IMG/VR virus record: IMGVR_UViG_3300037084_000036
Location: 1-37,652 of that record
DNA length: 37,652 nucleotides
Reading direction: 5' to 3' (one strand)
Source of the DNA: a virus
The first letter of the stretch is position 1; each line of letters opens with the position of its first letter. Under the pieces are notes generated by a model. The model made no database searches and had not been told where the DNA came from. It saw only the letters and a program-made list of their open reading frames with translations. Positions 1,560 through 37,652 of the stretch are shown in pieces. Position numbers and translations under genes: made by a program.

Positions 1560-2930
1560 TCAGTTCAGATCCCGACGCGCCGCCGCCGGCGCTTCCAGCT
1601 TCTTGCCGTTGATCGCCTGCAGCACCGCGGCGATCCGCAGATCCCGCGCATCGATCACCGCCTGCATCGACTTTTTCACGTCGTCGCCCTTGGTCTCGGC
1701 CATCGCCCTTCGCTGCCGCGTCTGCGTTGCCTTGAGCGCCGCCAGCGTTCCTTCGAGACCGCGACCGATCAGCGCCATGGTCTGCACCGGCATTTGTTCC
1801 TCGGCTTTGGCGCCGATCGGCATCACGATAAAGAGCGCGCCCGGCTCGCCCAAAAACGTGATGACCACCGGAGTCTTTTCTCCCTCGCCGACGAATGGCG
1901 TCAGACCCTTGCACTCGAATTTTGCACCAATCACCGCCGCTTGCTTGACGTACTCCGCCGCCAAGCTGTTGCCCGAGAGCGCGGCGCGTTCGCCGCCGGT
2001 CAGCACCGAGCCGGCCGCCTCGATCACCTTCTGATACTCGGGGAACTTGCCGTCGACTACGCGCATCCGGAAGGTCGCGAAATCTTCGCGATCCTTGACG
2101 ATCGCGTAGCCATGTCCAGGCGCGTAGCCGATCTGCACCAGGTCGGAGACTTCATCGTCGGGACCGGACTTCGTTTTCGCAAGCACGCCGAGCGCCAGGG
2201 CGAGCTCGTCGCGCGGCAGGATCACGCCCGCCGTCAGCCAGTTGTTCAGCACCTGGTCTTTTTCGGCCGGCGTCGAATGCAGGAGCAGCGTGTGCCCGTT
2301 GGTCGCGACCGCGCGGATTTCCTTCTGGTGCGAGATCAGGTACACGCCCACCAGATTCGCGCGCACTTCCTTTTTCGGCGCGACCATCAAACAGGCCTCG
2401 AGCACCGAGCGGCGAAACGTGAGCCAGGAAATATCCTTCGGCGATTCGACCACCTTCTTGCCCTCCACGACCGACGACGCCGGCGCCGGCAGCGCCTTCA
2501 TGGTCGGCGGTAGCAGTCCGCCTTGGATCTCCAGCAGCCGCGCCTTGAGGCTCGCGACTTCGTTGCGCGATTCGGCAAAATGCTTGACGCGAATCTGGAA
2601 CTCGTCTCGCAGCGCGCTCGCCGCCGACTTCGTTTGCACCAGCCGCCAATCGTCGATGACGTCCAGGCCTTTGGCGCGGATATCCTCGTACGCTTTGAGG
2701 TCGCCCGCGTTGCGGCGGTCGGCTGACTCCAGCATTTTCAGCAGTTCCTCGACCTTAGTAAACGAGCCGAGCGAACGGACCACGCCCGCAAGGTCCGCAG
2801 GCCTGATGGCGAAATCGTTCTGGATATCGGCCAGGTCTTTCGCGGTGAACTTCGCCCGGATCGCCGCCGCCTTCACGGCAATAGGATCGGGCTTCGGCGC
2901 TTTGGCCGACTTCTGTTTTGTCGATTTCAT
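1560..2930 (-). CDS. DNA polymerase III beta sliding-clamp-like protein with novel N-terminal region
   Basis: 456 residues from the ATG at 2930, preceded by GAGTTACCT as at other starts in this operon. Residues about 168-306 follow the middle domain of bacterial DnaN: 'NLVGVYLISHQKEIRAVATNGHTLLLHS' aligns with the beta-clamp 'ATDGHRLA' region (ATNGH at 209-213), then 'VILPRDELALAL' and 'VDGKFPEY' (about 292-299). A shortened third domain ends in 'FIVMPI' (about 367-372), as the DnaN C-terminus does with VVMPM. The first clamp domain is not recognisable; residues 1-165 are a charged, helical and probably coiled-coil region I cannot assign. The role could be a replication processivity factor or an interference protein acting on the host clamp; that is inference. 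No phage polymerase, helicase or primase is seen nearby. Confidence 0.75.
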   Translation of the reverse strand: MKSTKQKSAKAPKPDPIAVKAAAIRAKFTAKDLADIQNDFAIRPADLAGVVRSLGSFTKVEELLKMLESADRRNAGDLKAYEDIRAKGLDVIDDWRLVQTKSAASALRDEFQIRVKHFAESRNEVASLKARLLEIQGGLLPPTMKALPAPASSVVEGKKVVESPKDISWLTFRRSVLEACLMVAPKKEVRANLVGVYLISHQKEIRAVATNGHTLLLHSTPAEKDQVLNNWLTAGVILPRDELALALGVLAKTKSGPDDEVSDLVQIGYAPGHGYAIVKDREDFATFRMRVVDGKFPEYQKVIEAAGSVLTGGERAALSGNSLAAEYVKQAAVIGAKFECKGLTPFVGEGEKTPVVITFLGEPGALFIVMPIGAKAEEQMPVQTMALIGRGLEGTLAALKATQTRQRRAMAETKGDDVKKSMQAVIDARDLRIAAVLQAINGKKLEAPAAARRDLN

Positions 2931-2952
2931 AGGTAACTCGTCGTTTTTTATC

Positions 2953-3008
2953 GATGCGAAATCCGCATCCCGCAGCACCCTCGAAAAGCCGAAGGCGCTG
3001 CAGGCTGC
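2953..3008 (-). repeat. Intergenic double-hairpin repeat, copy 1
   Basis: GATGCG-AAATC-CGCATC (2953-2969) is a perfect 6-bp stem. It is followed by a second imperfect hairpin starting GCAGCACCCTCG and closing with GGCGCTGC. The element lies between two leftward genes and ends at the stop of the exported-protein gene. Near-identical copies sit at 3931-3985 (both hairpins) and 3694-3736 (second hairpin only). There is no T-tract; it may be an RNA-processing or stability element (inference). Confidence 0.75.
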
Positions 3009-5208: not shown

Positions 5209-5414
5209 TGGCGTCTGTCGCTCTTGTCGAAATTCCCTGCCAGCAATTGAACGAGTCGGCCGAGCCGACGCAGCTGCAGATCGACACGGCTCGCTGCACG
5301 CGCTGCATCGCCGAGCTCCAGGGAATTATCGCTCGAAAAAACCAGCTCATTTTCGAGCTCACCGCGCAGCTGCTCGAAAAAAAGACTCAAAAAGACTCCC
5401 ACCTGAATGGCTAG
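5208..5414 (+). CDS. Small coiled-coil hypothetical protein with a CxxC pair
   Basis: 68 residues from GTG 5208, sharing a base with the previous TAG. A single 'CTRC' lies in the middle, followed by a predicted helix 'IIARKNQLIFELTAQLLEKK' suited to a coiled coil. The 3' end overlaps the RusA gene by eight bases. A dimeric Zn-hook-like arrangement is possible but speculative. Confidence 0.6.
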   Translation: MASVALVEIPCQQLNESAEPTQLQIDTARCTRCIAELQGIIARKNQLIFELTAQLLEKKTQKDSHLNG

Positions 5415-5862
5415 CGTCACCTGCGAATTGCCGTGGCCGCCGTCGGCGAATCACGCGTGGCGTGCAGTCGATGGAAAAGTGCATCGATCGGAGCCGTATC
5501 GCGACTACAAAAAAGCAGTCGGCGATTCGGTGCTCGAGCAACGTGTGCGACGTCACTGGACGACTGATCGGCTCGCGATTGGTCTCGTGTTTTATCCACC
5601 CAATGCGCGCACGTTCGATATCGACAATCGCGTCAAGACCGTGCTCGATTGCTTGATGCACGCCGGCGTGATCCTCGACGATCGATTCGTCGATGTGATC
5701 GTGTTGGCACGCGGCAGCGTGCAAGCGCCACACGGCGCAGTGCTCGCGCACATCCAAGAACTGTCGACGCTCGACGTGCAGTTCTCAGCAATCGTTGATG
5801 CGCTGACGCCAACACGTCGCGACGCGCGCGCGTATGATCGCGGCGTGACGATCGATCGATAG
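5407..5862 (+). CDS. rusA: RusA-family Holliday junction resolvase
   Basis: 151 residues, slightly longer than E. coli RusA (120). The N-terminal 'LPWPPSANHAWRA' matches the family 'P.PPS.N' strand. The acidic catalytic block 'RTFDIDNRVKTVLDCLMHAGVILDDRFV' (shown in parts: DIDNRVK, LDCL, ILDD) has the Asp residues and Lys that bind metal in RusA. The enzyme cleaves four-way DNA junctions in the cytoplasm during phage recombination or before packaging. The C-terminal 25 residues, rich in Arg and Asp, are not conserved in the family as I know it. Confidence 0.93.
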   Translation: MASVTCELPWPPSANHAWRAVDGKVHRSEPYRDYKKAVGDSVLEQRVRRHWTTDRLAIGLVFYPPNARTFDIDNRVKTVLDCLMHAGVILDDRFVDVIVLARGSVQAPHGAVLAHIQELSTLDVQFSAIVDALTPTRRDARAYDRGVTIDR

Positions 5863-6853: not shown

Positions 6854-8531
6854 AGACTATATCCTCACGGCGATCGCGTACGCCGAGGATGCCATTGACG
6901 ATACCCGCGGCGAGTGCTACGGAAAGTGGATCCGGCTGGCCGCGAAACGCTTCATGCGCGACCTCGCCGCCACCCAAACCAAGCGGCCGCCGTTCCTCTG
7001 GTCGGCCAATTCCGCGATCAAGGCCTGCAAATTCATCGAGCGGCTGCCGCACGTCGAGGGCACGTGGTCGACCGAAACGATTTGCCTCGAGCCGTGCCAG
7101 TGCTTCTTCGTCGTGCAGCTGTTCGGCTTCCGCCGCCACGACGGCGCGCGCCGCTTCACCACGGCGCTGTTCAGTGTCGCGCGCAAGAACGCCAAGTCGA
7201 GTCTCGCGGCGGCGATCCTGCTGTACGTGTTCTGCATGGAGCCCGAGCACGGCCCGCAGGTGCTCTCGGCCGCGACCACCGGCGACCAGGCGCGCATCGT
7301 GTTCAGCATTGCGCGGCGCATGGTGCTGCAGAACTCCGGATTGCAATCGAGCTTCACGCTCGAGGCCTTCGCGAACTCGATCGTGCGCTACGAGGCGGGC
7401 GGGATCTTCCGGCCGATCAACTCGAAGGCCTCGACCCAGGACGGATTGAACCCGTCGGCGCTCGCATTCGACGAGCTGCACGCGCACAAAACCCGCGACC
7501 TCTTCGACGTGCTGCGCTCGGCCGCCGGCGCGCGCCGCGACCCGCTGTTCTTGTACACCACGACGGAGGGCTACGAGACACCCGGACCGTGGCCCGAGAT
7601 CCGCCACTACGCACAGCAGATTCTCAACCGCGTGCTCGAGGGCGATCACATGCTGGTGATCTACTACGCGATCGACGATGACGATGACGACTTCGATCAG
7701 TCGAAGTGGGTCAAGGCCAACCCGATGCTCGGCGTCTCGGTCGCGCTCGAGAAAATGCAGGAGTATGCGAGCGAGGCGCGCTCGCAGCCCGGCGCGCTCT
7801 CGGAATTCCAAATCAAGCGGCTCAATCGGCGTGCATCCGCCGCCACCGGCTGGGTGGACCTGCGGCGCTGGCGCAAATGCTCAGGCCCCGTCGATCTCGA
7901 CGCGCTGGTCGGCTATCCCTGTTGGGGTGCGCTCGATCTCGCGAGCACGCGCGACATGAACGCCTGGCGCTTGCTGTGGCTGAAGGACGATGTGTACTAC
8001 ACGTGGGGCCGCTATTGGGTTCCGGCGCTCGCCGTGCAACAGCGCACCGAGCGCCGATCGGTGCCGTACGCGGGCTGGGTTTCGGCCGGTTTTTTGACGC
8101 AAACGGAGGGCGACGTCGCCGATTATCGAGTGATCCGCGACGAAGTTGTCGCCGATTGGGAGCGCTTCTCGCCGTCCAAAGTAGCGTACGATCCGTGGAA
8201 CGCGACGCAGCTGGCGCTCGAATTGGCCGAGGCCGGCATCGAGATGGAGAAGTTTATTCAGGGCCCGCGATCGTACCAACCCGCGATGCAGGCCTGCGAA
8301 ATCGCCTACGTTTCGGGCAAGCTGCGGCACGCAGGGAACCCGATTCTTTTGTGGAACGCCGCTAACCTGGTGCCTCGCTATGACAGCAATCGCAACTCAG
8401 CACCCGACAAAAAACGCAGCGCCGAAAAGATCGACGGCATGGTCGCGCTCCTGATGGCGTTCGGGCTGTCAGCGGCCGAGCCCGGCGACGAAGACGCGGC
8501 CGGCTTCTTCGGCCAGGCGATCGTCGGATGA
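6780..8531 (+). CDS. terL: Terminase large subunit (HK97/Terminase_1 type)
   Basis: 583 residues from GTG 6780, the only start before the conserved part, giving an unusually long overlap with terS. Walker A is 'SVARKNAKSS' (about 132-141), Walker B 'LAFDEL' (about 227-232) and the coupling motif 'LYTTTEG' (about 258-264). The nuclease domain shows 'ALDLAST', 'AYDPWNA' and 'KIDGMVAL' near the end. A run of acidic residues (YAIDDDDDDFD) sits between the domains. The enzyme packages and cuts the genome at the portal. Confidence 0.96.
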   Translation: MSASPKSAKASRKPRSTISRSSGTKDYILTAIAYAEDAIDDTRGECYGKWIRLAAKRFMRDLAATQTKRPPFLWSANSAIKACKFIERLPHVEGTWSTETICLEPCQCFFVVQLFGFRRHDGARRFTTALFSVARKNAKSSLAAAILLYVFCMEPEHGPQVLSAATTGDQARIVFSIARRMVLQNSGLQSSFTLEAFANSIVRYEAGGIFRPINSKASTQDGLNPSALAFDELHAHKTRDLFDVLRSAAGARRDPLFLYTTTEGYETPGPWPEIRHYAQQILNRVLEGDHMLVIYYAIDDDDDDFDQSKWVKANPMLGVSVALEKMQEYASEARSQPGALSEFQIKRLNRRASAATGWVDLRRWRKCSGPVDLDALVGYPCWGALDLASTRDMNAWRLLWLKDDVYYTWGRYWVPALAVQQRTERRSVPYAGWVSAGFLTQTEGDVADYRVIRDEVVADWERFSPSKVAYDPWNATQLALELAEAGIEMEKFIQGPRSYQPAMQACEIAYVSGKLRHAGNPILLWNAANLVPRYDSNRNSAPDKKRSAEKIDGMVALLMAFGLSAAEPGDEDAAGFFGQAIVG

Positions 8532-33890: not shown

Positions 33891-34001
33891 TGCCGGGTGT
33901 TACCGGAGGGCGCGCGGCTTTGCGCCTTGGATGGTGCGCCCTGGGCGTGCTTGTGGCGTGAGGGCGGCCGGGGGGTGCGCCCTGGCGTGAAGTCCGGAAA
34001 C

Positions 34002-34239
34002 TGTCCCAACCCCCCTGGGACAATGGGACAAGTGGGAAAAATGGGCGCGTGTAAGTGGTTGAAAAGTGGCTCCCCGGGACGGATTCGAACCGCCGACCAA
34101 CGGATTAGCAGTCCGTTAGGATTTTGAGATTTTTGAAGGGGTTGAGCGCAATTCTGTCCCATCTGGGAGCCCAACAAAGCCGCCCCGGTTACGGTTGGCC
34201 CCGAGCCGTGGGACAGCGCGCCCATGTGGGACTTTGGTC
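34002..34239. other. attP: Phage attachment site region (attP) with tRNA 3'-half core and arm repeats
   Basis: The core, 34067-34116, read on the minus strand, is a tRNA 3' half: anticodon stem-loop ACGGA-CTGCTAA-TCCGT, a 5-base variable region, a T-arm with GGTTCGAATCC, the acceptor strand CCGGGGA, G and CCA. No D-arm or 5' acceptor strand follows, so it is not a working tRNA gene. The sequence TGGGACA or its complement flanks it: 34002-34008, 34016-34022, 34024-34030 on one side and 34155-34161, 34209-34215, 34227-34233 (TGGGACT) on the other, as expected for integrase arm sites. The anticodon reads GCU, but the short variable loop is not that of a normal tRNA-Ser. Confidence 0.75.
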
Positions 34240-34254
34240 CGTTGGCGCGGCCGT

Positions 34255-34479
34255 TCATTCGCGCACCTTCGTTATTTCCATCCGCACACGCTTGCCAGTT
34301 GGCGTACGGACAAAGATCGCCGCGCCGTAGCCGTAGCTCTCGATCTGTCCGCGCCGCAAGCGGTCTCCGTGGTCCCAAGTGACCTCGGTGCCTATCGGGT
34401 AGTCGATCTCCATTTGCTTGGCTGCCTTGTGCTGTAGTAGCACGGCGTGTGCGAGGAGCTTTTTGGTTTTGGTGGTCAC
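34255..34479 (-). CDS. Small hypothetical protein
   Basis: 74 residues from GTG 34479, which overlaps the previous TGA (GTGA); a TTG at 34500 in the same frame is less likely. 'IDYPIGTEVTWDHGDRLRRGQIESYGYG' (in part) looks like a small beta-barrel of the KOW/SH3 or PUA kind, with 'IFVRTPTGKRVRMEI' after it. It is the last gene of the leftward array and ends near attP. The function is unknown. Confidence 0.65.
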   Translation of the reverse strand: MTTKTKKLLAHAVLLQHKAAKQMEIDYPIGTEVTWDHGDRLRRGQIESYGYGAAIFVRTPTGKRVRMEITKVRE

Positions 34480-34856
34480 CCGAGAATCCAGCGCGTGCAA
34501 TAGCCGCTGAAGGGGAGCGCCGCTTTGCCGTACTGCGAGGCGAACCAGTCCGCCATCGTCAGCGCGTTCTCGAATCCATCGCGGCGCGCGAAGTCATCGG
34601 CCATCCATGACGCCAAACCTATACCCCGAATCTTGACCTTGCCGCGCGCCGGATCAATCTCAACTGCGAAACAGTCGGACACGGTCCCGGTCGCAAGCAG
34701 GCGCGTCGCCTTGGTGCGAAGTCCGGTGTAGAGCTTAACCGTCTCGCCGAGCCGGGGCACGCGCCCGTCCTTGCGGTGCAGCCGGATCGTTTGCCGTTTC
34801 GCGCCGGTTGCAACGCTCTCGGCGAACTGCCGTTTGAAATTAAACACGACCGTCAT
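34476..34856 (-). CDS. ASCH/PUA-like domain protein
   Basis: 126 residues, ATGA overlap with the LysM gene stop. 'FNFKRQFAESVATGAKRQTIRLHR' (in part), 'RVPRLGETVKLYTGLRTKATRLL' (in part) and 'FENALTMADWFASQYG' follow the ASCH layout, where a Lys/Arg-rich pocket binds RNA or modified nucleotides. Similar genes are common in temperate phages. The role is unknown. Confidence 0.7.
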   Translation of the reverse strand: MTVVFNFKRQFAESVATGAKRQTIRLHRKDGRVPRLGETVKLYTGLRTKATRLLATGTVSDCFAVEIDPARGKVKIRGIGLASWMADDFARRDGFENALTMADWFASQYGKAALPFSGYCTRWILG

Positions 34857-35032
34857 CGCACCGGCTCCGCTCGCAGCGGCGGGAGCTCGAGCACCTGGCC
34901 CGGGTAGATCAAATCCGGATTCTTGATCTGTGGGTTGGCCTGCAAGATGTCGAACCAGGCGAGCGGATCGCCGAGCTCGCGGCTCGCAATGCTCGCGAGC
35001 GTGTCGCCAGCTTGGACGGTGTAGGTAGCCAT
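34853..35032 (-). CDS. 59-residue LysM-domain protein, copy A
   Basis: The protein is one LysM unit: 'YTVQAGDTLASIASRELG', 'WFDILQANPQIKNPDLIYPG' and 'QVLELPP'. There is no signal peptide or other domain. It is 78 percent identical (46 of 59 by eye) to copy B just upstream, and its ATG overlaps copy B's TGA. The sequence also recalls short tail proteins of the gpX type, which have a LysM-like fold, so a structural or peptidoglycan-binding role are both possible. Confidence 0.8.
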   Translation of the reverse strand: MATYTVQAGDTLASIASRELGDPLAWFDILQANPQIKNPDLIYPGQVLELPPLRAEPVR

Positions 35033-35211
35033 CAGCGCACCTGCTCCGCTCGGCGCGGCGGGAGCTCGAGCACCTGGCCCGGGAAGATCAATTCCGGATT
35101 CCCGATCTGCGGGTTGAGACCCCAGATGTCGGGCCACGCGAGCGCATTGCCGAGTTCGCGCCTCGCAATGCTCGAGAGCGTATCGCCGGCTTGGACGGTG
35201 TAGGTAGCCAT
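35032..35211 (-). CDS. 59-residue LysM-domain protein, copy B
   Basis: ATG 35211 overlaps the stop of the GIY-YIG gene (TGATG). The sequence runs 'MATYTVQAGDTLSSIARREL', 'WPDIWGLNPQIGNPELIFPG', 'QVLELPPRRAEQVR'. It is a tandem duplicate of copy A with the same length and the same start and stop junctions. The duplication is recent enough that most of the DNA still aligns. Confidence 0.8.
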   Translation of the reverse strand: MATYTVQAGDTLSSIARRELGNALAWPDIWGLNPQIGNPELIFPGQVLELPPRRAEQVR

Positions 35212-35645
35212 CAGCGCACCGGCTTCACTTTTGAGCCGAGCTCGAACTGCCCGGCGGTGCTCAGATCAACCTGATCGAAATGGGCATTGATCAGACGGCA
35301 GGCTTGACCGAATGCTTCGCCGCGGTCCATGTCCATATTTTGCCCGCGACTTCCACGAGGCATCGGGCCTTTTCGATCTTGGATATTGAGCAGCGGTTTC
35401 TCGCGCAAAATCGCGCGGCGTTCGTGGTGGCGTGCGTCCCCTCTGGACTCGAAGCGCTGTATGTGAATGACCCGCGCTCGATCAAAAAAAACAGATGATC
35501 CAGCGTGAGTCTCGAGCCGGCTAAGCACAGAGTTGCTTATTCCCACGTAGATCAATCGGCCGACGTCATCGAAGACGCGGTACAGACAAAAACGGTAGGG
35601 AGATCTGGGCGGAAGTCTCACCGCGCGTAACTCCGACTCGTTCAT
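35211..35645 (-). CDS. GIY-YIG nuclease-domain protein
   Basis: 144 residues from ATG 35645 with GGTGCGCTG upstream; the same frame runs on to 35879 without a stop, so a 222-residue fusion is an alternative. 'FCLYRVFDDVGRLIYVGISNSVLSRLETH' (in part) holds the two GIY-YIG strands (Y-R-V/ Y-V-G) and the conserved Arg; 'ESRGDARHHERRAILREKPLLN' (in part) supplies the Glu and Asn. The C-terminus ends VKPVR like the integrase. Such enzymes cut DNA; here it could be a homing nuclease or defence component. Confidence 0.78.
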   Translation of the reverse strand: MNESELRAVRLPPRSPYRFCLYRVFDDVGRLIYVGISNSVLSRLETHAGSSVFFDRARVIHIQRFESRGDARHHERRAILREKPLLNIQDRKGPMPRGSRGQNMDMDRGEAFGQACRLINAHFDQVDLSTAGQFELGSKVKPVR

Positions 35646-35879
35646 CAGCGCACCGTCTTCGCCTTGAAGGCCGGGTCCGCGTGTAGCGCTCGCATGCGCG
35701 CGGCGAGTTCGACGATCCACCGGCTTGGCTGGATAGCGGCAGGAATACGGGCAGCCCGGTCCGTGTATTTTTCGGAGGTGCTGCACCTGGCTCTCAAGTT
35801 CAATCGCCTTGGCGCTCCCGGTCGGGCGACGGTACCGAACTTCCTCGCGCCCATCAGGCCATGTGTAAACGACCTCCAT
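35645..35879 (-). CDS. Small phage hypothetical protein, probably frameshifted
   Basis: ATG 35879 opens 'MEVVYTWPDGREEVRYRRPT' and continues with 'AIELESQVQHLRKIHGPGCP' (in part), which looks genuine. After about residue 45 the frame becomes Arg-rich, while the +/-1 frame reads 'SRWIVELAARMRALHADPAF' (in part) and stops at 35645 with KTVR-TGA in the junction pattern shared by its neighbours. So one base was probably gained or lost near 35720-35750, or two genes overlap here. In the first frame it joins the GIY-YIG gene. Confidence 0.5.
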
Positions 35880-36031
35880 CAGCGCACCGGCTTGAGCGTT
35901 TGCGCTCGCACGTAGCGCACCAGCATCCCGGCGTCGTGGCCGAGCACGTTTATCAGGCGCTCGCGGCCCCGCTCGAGGTTGCGGCTAGAGCGCGCGATTG
36001 CGCCCTTAGGCGTCCAGCGGCGCGCGGCCAT
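35879..36031 (-). CDS. 50-residue ORF carrying a duplicated integrase C-terminus
   Basis: Read from ATG 36031 it starts 'MAARRWTPKGAIARSSRNLE' and ends 'NVLGHDAGMLVRYVRAQTL' plus KPVR. The last 23 residues equal the end of the integrase, including the LGH motif and the active-site Tyr. At DNA level 35877-35950 and 36274-36347 agree in 67 of 74 bases by eye. It cannot be a working recombinase; it may be a by-product of unequal recombination that kept an open frame. Confidence 0.7.
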   Translation of the reverse strand: MAARRWTPKGAIARSSRNLERGRERLINVLGHDAGMLVRYVRAQTLKPVR

Positions 36032-36276
36032 CAGCGCCACGTCACTGCCACTGCAACCGCCTCTGATACCCGCACGCGGTCTAGCAGATAGCAGCCGCGC
36101 ACGCCGTCAAGCCAGATGACGGCGCTGTGCCCGCTTAGCACTTCGGCGGCGCTGCGCGTTTTGGTCTGCAGCTGCTCGCCGTTGTCCCTGGTCAGCACGA
36201 CATCGCAGCCAACCGGATTGACGGCGTTCCACGCATCGCACTCCGCCTGGAGTTTTGCCACCTTGCGCGCGCCCAT
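36031..36276 (-). CDS. Small hypothetical protein
   Basis: 81 residues from ATG 36276, which overlaps the integrase stop. 'GARKVAKLQAECDAWNAVNPVGCDVVLTR' (in part) and 'HSAVIWLDGVRGCYLLDRV' resemble a small phage protein of unknown role seen beside integrases. Its end differs from the -KPVR pattern (AVAVTWR). No motif for function is visible. Confidence 0.7.
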   Translation of the reverse strand: MGARKVAKLQAECDAWNAVNPVGCDVVLTRDNGEQLQTKTRSAAEVLSGHSAVIWLDGVRGCYLLDRVRVSEAVAVAVTWR

Positions 36277-37253
36277 CAGCGCACCGGCTTCAAGGTCTGC
36301 GCGCGCACATAGCGCACCAGCATGCCGGCGTCGTGGCCGAGCACGTTGTGCGTTGCATCGCTCGCGGCCTTCGGGCGAAGCTCGCGGAATTTGAACGCCG
36401 CGCCGAAGCGTTTCATGGCGCACTGCAGACCGTCCATCGTGTAGGGACGTCCCGCCGCGCTCACGAACACGTGCTCGCAGGTGGACCGCGCCAGCGCGAG
36501 ATCCACGAAGTGTTTAAGCCGCGGGCTCCAGCTGATCTTGCGCAGCTTGCCATCCTTCGACTGGCGGAGCTCGATCCCAAAGTCGGTAATGTTCGCGCGC
36601 TGCAAGATCCGCAAGTCGCCCTGGCGCAGGCCGGTCAGGTACGCGACCGCAAAGAGCTCCGCGAGGCACGGCGGCGCGCGGTCGAGCTCCGCGCTCAAGA
36701 CCTCGTCCGGCACGTAGACCTTGCTCGGGGTTTCCTTGTTGCGCCGCACGCCGTAGCACGGATTCGTGCCGCACCAGCCGAAGCGCATTCCCCAGGAAAT
36801 GATCGCGCCCAAGGTCGCGCGCTCGCGATTGCCGCCGATCGGCGCGCCCTCGACTTTGCGCAGCTGCAGGTACTGCGCGACGTGCGTCGCCTCGAGCGTG
36901 TTCAGCAGCATGTGCCCGAAGTGGTGCTGCAGGCGGCCGTTGATCTGGCGCAGATACTCGGGCTGCGTCGCGGGCTTCAATTCGCCGAGCGCGCGCGCCA
37001 CGTACAGGATCATCAGCTGCCCATAGGTCGCGGGCCGGTCCGACGTGTAGACCTGGAGCGCCGTGTACAGCGCGGCCGCGCCTTCGTCGACGCGCGTCAA
37101 CGGTAGGTCTTTGCCTTCGTGCCGGTAGTAGTAGCGGCCGTGCTTTTCGCGGACCTTTGGCGGCAGGTGCTTGACCACCGTCGGCTTCGGCAGCGTCGGC
37201 TTGGGCGCGACCGGGAACAGAATGATTTTGCTGTCGTCGTCGTTGATGCTCAT
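36276..37253 (-). CDS. int: Tyrosine-type phage integrase
   Basis: 325 residues from ATG 37253 (ATGA overlap with the upstream gene); ATG 37262 would add three residues. The arm-binding/core-binding part runs to about 175 ('RYYYRHEGKDLPL', 'TATYGQLMILYVARAL' region). Catalytic residues are Arg210 in 'AYLTGLRQGDL', Lys in 'QSKDGKLRKISW', the box II 'FRELRPKAASD' where the usual His is Arg290 and Arg293 is kept, His307 in 'NVLGHDAGM' and Tyr315 in 'LVRYVR'. The missing His is usual in one integrase subgroup. It should integrate the genome at the tRNA whose 3' half is in attP, 2.2 kb downstream. Confidence 0.92.
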   Translation of the reverse strand: MSINDDDSKIILFPVAPKPTLPKPTVVKHLPPKVREKHGRYYYRHEGKDLPLTRVDEGAAALYTALQVYTSDRPATYGQLMILYVARALGELKPATQPEYLRQINGRLQHHFGHMLLNTLEATHVAQYLQLRKVEGAPIGGNRERATLGAIISWGMRFGWCGTNPCYGVRRNKETPSKVYVPDEVLSAELDRAPPCLAELFAVAYLTGLRQGDLRILQRANITDFGIELRQSKDGKLRKISWSPRLKHFVDLALARSTCEHVFVSAAGRPYTMDGLQCAMKRFGAAFKFRELRPKAASDATHNVLGHDAGMLVRYVRAQTLKPVR

Positions 37254-37531
37254 TTGACGCACCCGTGCATTTTGCCGATCTTCCGGTTGAGGATATCGAG
37301 CTCTTTTTGCGCACGCGCCCGGGATCGCGCGAGCGCCTTGCCCTGTTTCGCGGTGCGCAGCGGCGGCTCGCCGTTCGCCAGCCGAATCACGCCGCGCGAG
37401 AGTGAGCCGCCGCCGGCGGCGCGCAGCTGCTCGGCGAGCTCCTTGGGCAAATGCACCATGGAACGCACGCCGGGCGTGTCCGCTGTGAGAGGCGGACGGC
37501 CGCGCCTGGGTTTGATGGGTAACTCCGTCAT
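37250..37531 (-). CDS. Ribbon-helix-helix-like small DNA-binding protein, possible integrase regulator
   Basis: 93 residues, ATG 37531, with GGAGCCCAC upstream. An Arg/Pro-rich start ('KPRRGRPPLTADTPGV', an AT-hook-like stretch) precedes 'RSMVHLPKELAEQLRAAGGG' and 'SLSRGVIRLANGE', which fits a beta strand and two helices. A basic coiled tail follows ('ARSRARAQKELDILNRK'). It is co-transcribed with int and may act as an excisionase or as its own repressor; this is inference. Confidence 0.65.
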   Translation of the reverse strand: MTELPIKPRRGRPPLTADTPGVRSMVHLPKELAEQLRAAGGGSLSRGVIRLANGEPPLRTAKQGKALARSRARAQKELDILNRKIGKMHGCVK

Positions 37532-37564
37532 GTGGGCTCCGTTTTTGTTTGAAACCGAGACCCT

Positions 37565-37599
37565 ATTTTAGCAGCTTAATTCCGCGATTAAAAGCAGCA
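37565..37599 (-). promoter_or_regulatory. Putative int-operon promoter with repeated GCTGCT operator
   Basis: On the minus strand AGCTGCTAAAAT gives an extended -10 (TGC-TAAAAT, hexamer 37565-37570), 34 bp before the start at 37531. A second copy, TGCTGCTTTTA, lies at 37589-37599, about one helical turn times two upstream, and matches 4310-4320 exactly in inverse orientation. The same GCTGCTA overlaps the promoters in the 4.2-4.4 kb control region. No repressor can be assigned. Confidence 0.45.
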
Positions 37600-37652
37600 C
37601 AAATTTACGGCCGTGACTTGGGAAGCAGCGGCGTGACGTTTTTTTTGGGCGC

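Follow-up and report, generated by a model that had tools for sequence, protein, structure and literature searches.

How do small genes that are unrelated to one another come to meet, end to start, through nearly the same short sequence? The question is raised by a small family of temperate phages in which the interval from the integrase gene to the attachment site carries unrelated small genes. The window analysed here, the stretch of DNA under study, is IMG/VR virus record IMGVR_UViG_3300037084_000036, positions 1-37,652 (37,652 nucleotides), and IMG/VR contains six further members of the family. These six were the only relatives recovered by scans that used the integrase alignment, the integrase C-terminus and attP, and by the same scans no family members were found in species-level bacterial genomes.

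Layout of the array and its joints

The array genes lie on the minus strand, in the order integrase, ORFa, ORFb, c1, c2, GIY-YIG, LysM1, LysM2, 126-aa gene, 74-aa gene and attP-like core. The tyrosine integrase gene (36276..37253; PHROG 1 integrase, E 2.4e-27) closes on the codons AAG CCG GTG CGC TGA, encoding KPVR-stop, and joint 1, to ORFa (36273..36291), is an exact 18-mer. ORFa (36031..36276) encodes a small protein of 81 aa (phrog_9165, E 1.2e-10; about 39% by tblastn) whose family occurs in Pseudomonas phages such as F116. It meets ORFb at the weak joint 2 (36031..36040), where only GCGCTGATGG (10 nt) is in common. ORFb (50 aa; 35879..36031), the last 23 codons of which duplicate the integrase C-terminus, joins c1 with one mismatch (joint 3; 35876..35894). 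c1, with about 54 codons (MEVVYTWPDG...KPV; 35718..35879), ends at a broken joint, AAGCCGGTG (35718-35726), and is followed by c2 (35645..35717), which its reading frames identify as the 3ʹ part of a gene read in a different frame; c2 ends in KTVR-stop and had no match in the family searches.

Joint 4 (35642..35660; one mismatch) leads into the gene for a GIY-YIG domain protein of 144 aa (35211..35645; PF01541, E 8.4e-5; phrog_16880, E 1.9e-14), which ends KPVR-stop at an exact 18-mer, joint 5 (35208..35226). Two LysM proteins of 59 aa each follow, the first ending QVR-stop (35032..35211; PF01476, E 1.7e-10) and the second PVR-stop (34853..35032; PF01476, E 2.2e-11), with joint 6 between them (35029..35047; two mismatches, 18-mer match at 35030). 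Joint 7 (34850..34868), between the second LysM gene and the gene for the 126-aa protein (34476..34856; phrog_8581, E 9.6e-6; one relative annotated as an ASCH-domain protein), has three mismatches and an ATGA overlap in place of TGATG. At the 3ʹ end of the 126-aa gene, where it meets the 74-aa gene, the motif is absent. The last cargo gene (34255..34479) encodes the 74-aa protein, ending KVRE-stop. At the far border stands GGTGCGC (34261..34267), followed by ACCAAAGTCCCACA. Beyond it, a sequence like the 3ʹ half of a tRNA-Asn gene (34067..34117) is the probable attP core, a role suggested by its conservation in relatives L012, L013, L015 and L016. At the anticodon-loop position the window reads CTGCTAA versus CTGTTAA in these four, as in tRNA-Asn; tRNA and Rfam scans of the window gave no matches.

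The joint reads GAAGCCGGTGCGC-TGATG-G and consists of copies of (AAGCC)GGTGCGC-TGATG, in which ...(KP)VR-stop overlaps the next ATG. With up to three mismatches allowed, the 18-mer matches the window six times, always in the array (34851, 35030, 35209, 35643, 35877 and 36274), versus 0.09 matches expected in shuffles. Four of these copies have at most one mismatch (none at 36274 and 35209, one at 35877 and 35643), and the motif is absent from the rest of the window outside the array. The original prediction counted seven joints between 34854 and 36291. Six of them hold, four with at most one mismatch and two with 2-3, but the seventh (36031) shares only 10 nt; two partial copies had been overlooked (AAGCCGGTG at 35718-35726 and GGTGCGC at 34261-34267), and the array, although present where it was placed, runs on to about 34255.

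Five array ends match AAGCCGGTGCGC in their last four codons at 10 or more of 12 positions, compared with none of the ORF ends outside integrases and array among 172 mechanically called ORFs of the window and relatives, some counted twice. Among 222 ORF ends from the window, the relatives and unrelated phage loci, VR ends are confined to integrases, array genes and two ORFs of L010, a contig included since it contains the 18-mer. Not every copy is independent. The two LysM genes are tandem duplicates of one another, and the copy at 35877 falls in a 75-bp repeat of the integrase 3ʹ end.

The weak copies at 36031 and 34261 are each near the chance expectation. Chance or faulty assembly is nevertheless a negligible explanation for the whole, already refuted for the strong copies by the six matches versus 0.09 expected. 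Moreover, a separate contig, L011, carries the same array with 0 differences over 35057-36512, which makes an assembly artefact unlikely. The array is thus real and common to the window and L011, though L011 shows the locus in no further state. Over 2596 bp the two differ at 9 positions, all in the integrase (36513-37104), with no difference in the neighbouring 1456 bp of array; the boundary of these differences may be that of a recent exchange.

Integrase tails and the states of the locus

The source of the joint can be traced through the relatives. The integrases of all six have the KPVR C-terminus (one is known at least that far, in the same alignment), which traces the joint to the tail of the integrase itself, as had been proposed from the window. 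Codons for KPVR and the bases after the stop vary among relatives (TGAGG in L014; TGACT in L015 and L016), and L014, L015 and L016 have no cargo ahead of the attP-like sequence. L014 (integrase 74% identical) has another tRNA-like end, GGTTCGATCCCTACACGGCCCACCA, after the integrase (6987-7150 of that contig), which suggests an attachment-site switch within the family.

Two further relatives show the locus in other states. L012 is an empty site, in which the integrase ends ...AAGCCGGTGCGC-TGATGCCCTACCAAAGTCC... and attP lies 0.2 kb further on, with no cargo. In L013, the integrase ends ...AAGCCGGTGCGG-TGATGGCC. Two genes of 91 and 71 aa come next, ending RVR-TGATG and VVR-TGATG and showing no DNA match in the window; beyond them lie GGCCTACCAAAGTCC and the attP of L012. 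L012 and L013 differ by a clean 490-bp two-gene block with a copy of GGTGCG(C/G)TGATG at each side, between flanks identical at 386/417 and 207/222 positions (93%). The block would be a gain in L013 or a loss in L012. At the L013 cargo joints only a 12-nt core is shared by position, the upstream bases matching at 7-8/12. The tail of the second L013 gene ends ...CCGGTG-GTG-CGCTGATGGCC, which L012 has in single copy; an inserted gene thus repeats the 3ʹ end of the gene upstream of it, as also at joint 3 of the window. The window's far border likewise falls at GGTGCGC, and the adjacent 14-mer ACCAAAGTCCCACA, in common with L012, was reached by 0/2000 shuffles.

Three distinct states are therefore on record: empty, two genes, and about nine genes and remnants. 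At the borders of L012, L013 and the window, the same short sequence adjoins differing DNA on one side, and exchange breakpoints coincide with it in the one comparison available, L012 with L013. These results agree with the original prediction that different phages would carry different genes at the joint and that breakpoints would align with it. The prediction of a recombination linker survives within the family, on the strength of the different genes and coincident breakpoints, but not as a general linker, and part of the array is plain duplication.

That part is evident in two places. The LysM gene and its joint are duplicated in tandem with a period of 179 and 85% identity, and ORFb contains a second integrase tail as a 75-nt repeat, 91% identical. 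Could the array then have arisen by duplication in place, with the integrase 3ʹ end and the LysM gene copied and the copies diverged or overwritten, in the absence of exchange between phages? The 75-nt and 179-bp repeats are duplications, as this explanation holds, yet it is quite unlikely, because L013 has other genes at the same place, differing cargo between joints of related phages is already suggested by L012 and L013, and relatives of the cargo genes turn up separately in unrelated phages. The second integrase tail also speaks against it. Over 23 codons it differs from the resident tail at 7 nt, all synonymous, and the similarity stops upstream, whereas a dead local copy should gain amino-acid changes. 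The donor was for this reason more likely another phage with a working integrase, a judgement that draws on few sites: over the last 24 codons, the ORFb tail is identical at 62/72 nt to each of L012 and L013, compared with 58 and 59 for the resident tail. ORFb is thus probably a remnant of another integrase.

Remnants of another kind surround the broken joint. c1 has a relative in LR756511, a large uncultured phage; that ORF stops after CPYFYRTVK at the same place as c1, and the window reads CPYSCRYPA, then AAGCCGGTG, then the 3ʹ remnant of a different gene, in a different frame. The c1/c2 boundary looks like a joint broken by deletion.

The reading that best accounts for the locus, with a probability of roughly 0.6, is that the stretch from the integrase stop to attP is a cargo locus built or changed by recombination at repeats of the integrase tail, the stop/start overlap being kept. 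Recombination at the tail is supported by its being native to the integrase, by its bounding both the two-gene insertion/deletion and the tandem duplication, and by the second, longer tail within the array; the short core shared by the L013 cargo joints, one weak joint, one joint lacking the motif and the lack of a recognised phage annealing recombinase among the 20 main ORFs count against it. The swapping of genes is suggested by comparison of the three locus states.

Rival readings of the joints: translation and site-specific recombination

Each intact cargo joint has a stop/start overlap (TGATG, ATGA or GTGA); overlaps of the TGATG type occur widely among prokaryotes, where the genes so joined are usually coupled (PMC6728339). 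The shared ribosome binding site of the original prediction dwindles to GGTG, a weak element and the only Shine-Dalgarno-like one at the joints. Pairing with 16S rRNA is predicted at -6 to -9 kcal/mol at motif joints, compared with a background median of -4.6, and the array products are probably translated by termination-reinitiation behind the preceding gene.

GGTG-spacer-TGATG may simply be a good reinitiation signal on which unrelated genes converged through selection for translation, after ordinary illegitimate recombination. The distance from GGTG to ATG is suitable at most joints, the pairing lies above background and coupled TGATG overlaps are common (PMC6728339). Even so, this origin of the shared sequence is unlikely: upstream bases differ at other TGATG overlaps in these phages, the identity reaches AAGCC, which pairing does not need, and neither the 75-nt second integrase tail nor the coincidence of the L012/L013 breakpoints is explained.

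Matches outside the family bear on the same point. The original prediction proposed that the 18-mer be sought in other phages; outside the family, IMG/VR holds five exact matches only, all in unrelated contexts and at chance level, and a widespread phage linker is rejected. Two of the five, in the unrelated phage contigs L005 (232-249) and L010 (3291-3308), are also KPVR-TGATG gene joints, which could favour selection for translation; they may be due to chance or may reflect a good coupling signal. No relatives of the cargo genes bearing the joint elsewhere were found in IMG/VR, and a DNA search of named phages and plasmids gave no match.

The row of gene-plus-joint units behind an integrase gene also resembles a site-specific cassette system, in which the phage integrase or another recombinase would cut at the joint, as in integrons. 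Such a system is highly improbable, since the joint lacks an inverted repeat, its folding does not exceed that of shuffled sequences (z -0.46 to +0.86), several of its copies are imperfect, and its best match to the attP region (12/18) is reached by 9% of shuffled attP. An integron cassette proper was rejected, as the folding inverted repeat of the attC type is absent. Repeated elements between small variable genes also recall the PeSLs of T4-like phages (Arbiol 2010; Comeau 2014; both as cited in PMC4503421), which are reportedly early promoters with stem-loops between such genes and have been proposed to serve in shuffling. No sigma-70-like promoter was found in 34000-37652, and no hairpin at the joint. 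With no hairpin, attP-like or promoter signal at the joint, integron cassettes and PeSLs fail as classes.

Proposed growth of the array and comparison with known phage mosaics

Under recombination at the integrase tail, a cargo gene entering downstream of the integrase would gain a copy of the tail at its 3ʹ end, and each entry would therefore leave a new repeat. Unequal crossing-over between the repeats of co-infecting or resident relatives could then add, duplicate or delete whole genes. As the repeat contains the stop and the next ATG, with the weak GGTG, reinitiation is probable and exchanges at the repeat would remain expressible. No dedicated recombination system was found. Among the 20 main ORFs, PHROGs recognised no phage annealing recombinase; two separate ORFs (window 1560-2978 and 5407-5862) match RusA-like Holliday junction resolvase families. 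Phage-encoded Rad52-like recombinases drive exchange between diverged phage sequences (PMC3945230), and an annealing-type function could derive from an unrecognised gene, the host or another prophage.

The principle is already known. In mycobacteriophage Island3, the 3ʹ end of gene 67 recurs in gene 68, Brujita having that sequence in single copy, and recombination between the repeats was inferred (PMC3029335, Fig. 5C). As here, one of two close relatives has a gene that the other lacks, and its 3ʹ end copies that of the preceding gene; Island3, however, has one gene and a repeat of roughly 50-60 bp, whereas the present array has several genes, with a short integrase-derived repeat at most joints, adjoining attP. 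Lambdoid phages have short conserved boundary sequences, or linkers (Susskind and Botstein 1978; Clark et al. 2001; both as cited in PMC3029335), and there too a short common sequence at mosaic joints permits homologous exchange of modules. Those sequences lie at equivalent places in different phages, whereas here one sequence stands in tandem at one locus, inside coding ends.

Other systems are more distant. The start-associated sequences of cluster K mycobacteriophages, a 13-mer (GGGATAGGAGCCC) that is built around AGGAG and precedes the start codon, extend over the right half of the genome (PMC3203893). The array joint differs in sequence and is confined to one locus, and no array joint sequence has an AGGAG-containing 13-mer a few bases before the start. 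Termination-reinitiation pairs (PMC6728339) have the TGATG overlap but lack an extended sequence common from gene to gene. What is new is a multi-gene array whose joint has a traceable source.

Common sequences at the joints of phage mosaics have been sought for decades and are not identifiable at most of them (PMC3029335). Here, one short, traceable sequence occupies most cargo joints; the breakpoints of a relative fall on it, and it keeps the overlap of stop and start. This makes the linker model directly testable with repeat-bounded genes in a laboratory phage. A tentative possibility is that the locus tags itself: each captured gene would receive the integrase tail and become the next site of exchange, giving an open-ended, translationally coupled array that needs no dedicated recombinase. 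If true, the locus would work like a cassette array lacking any dedicated recombinase.
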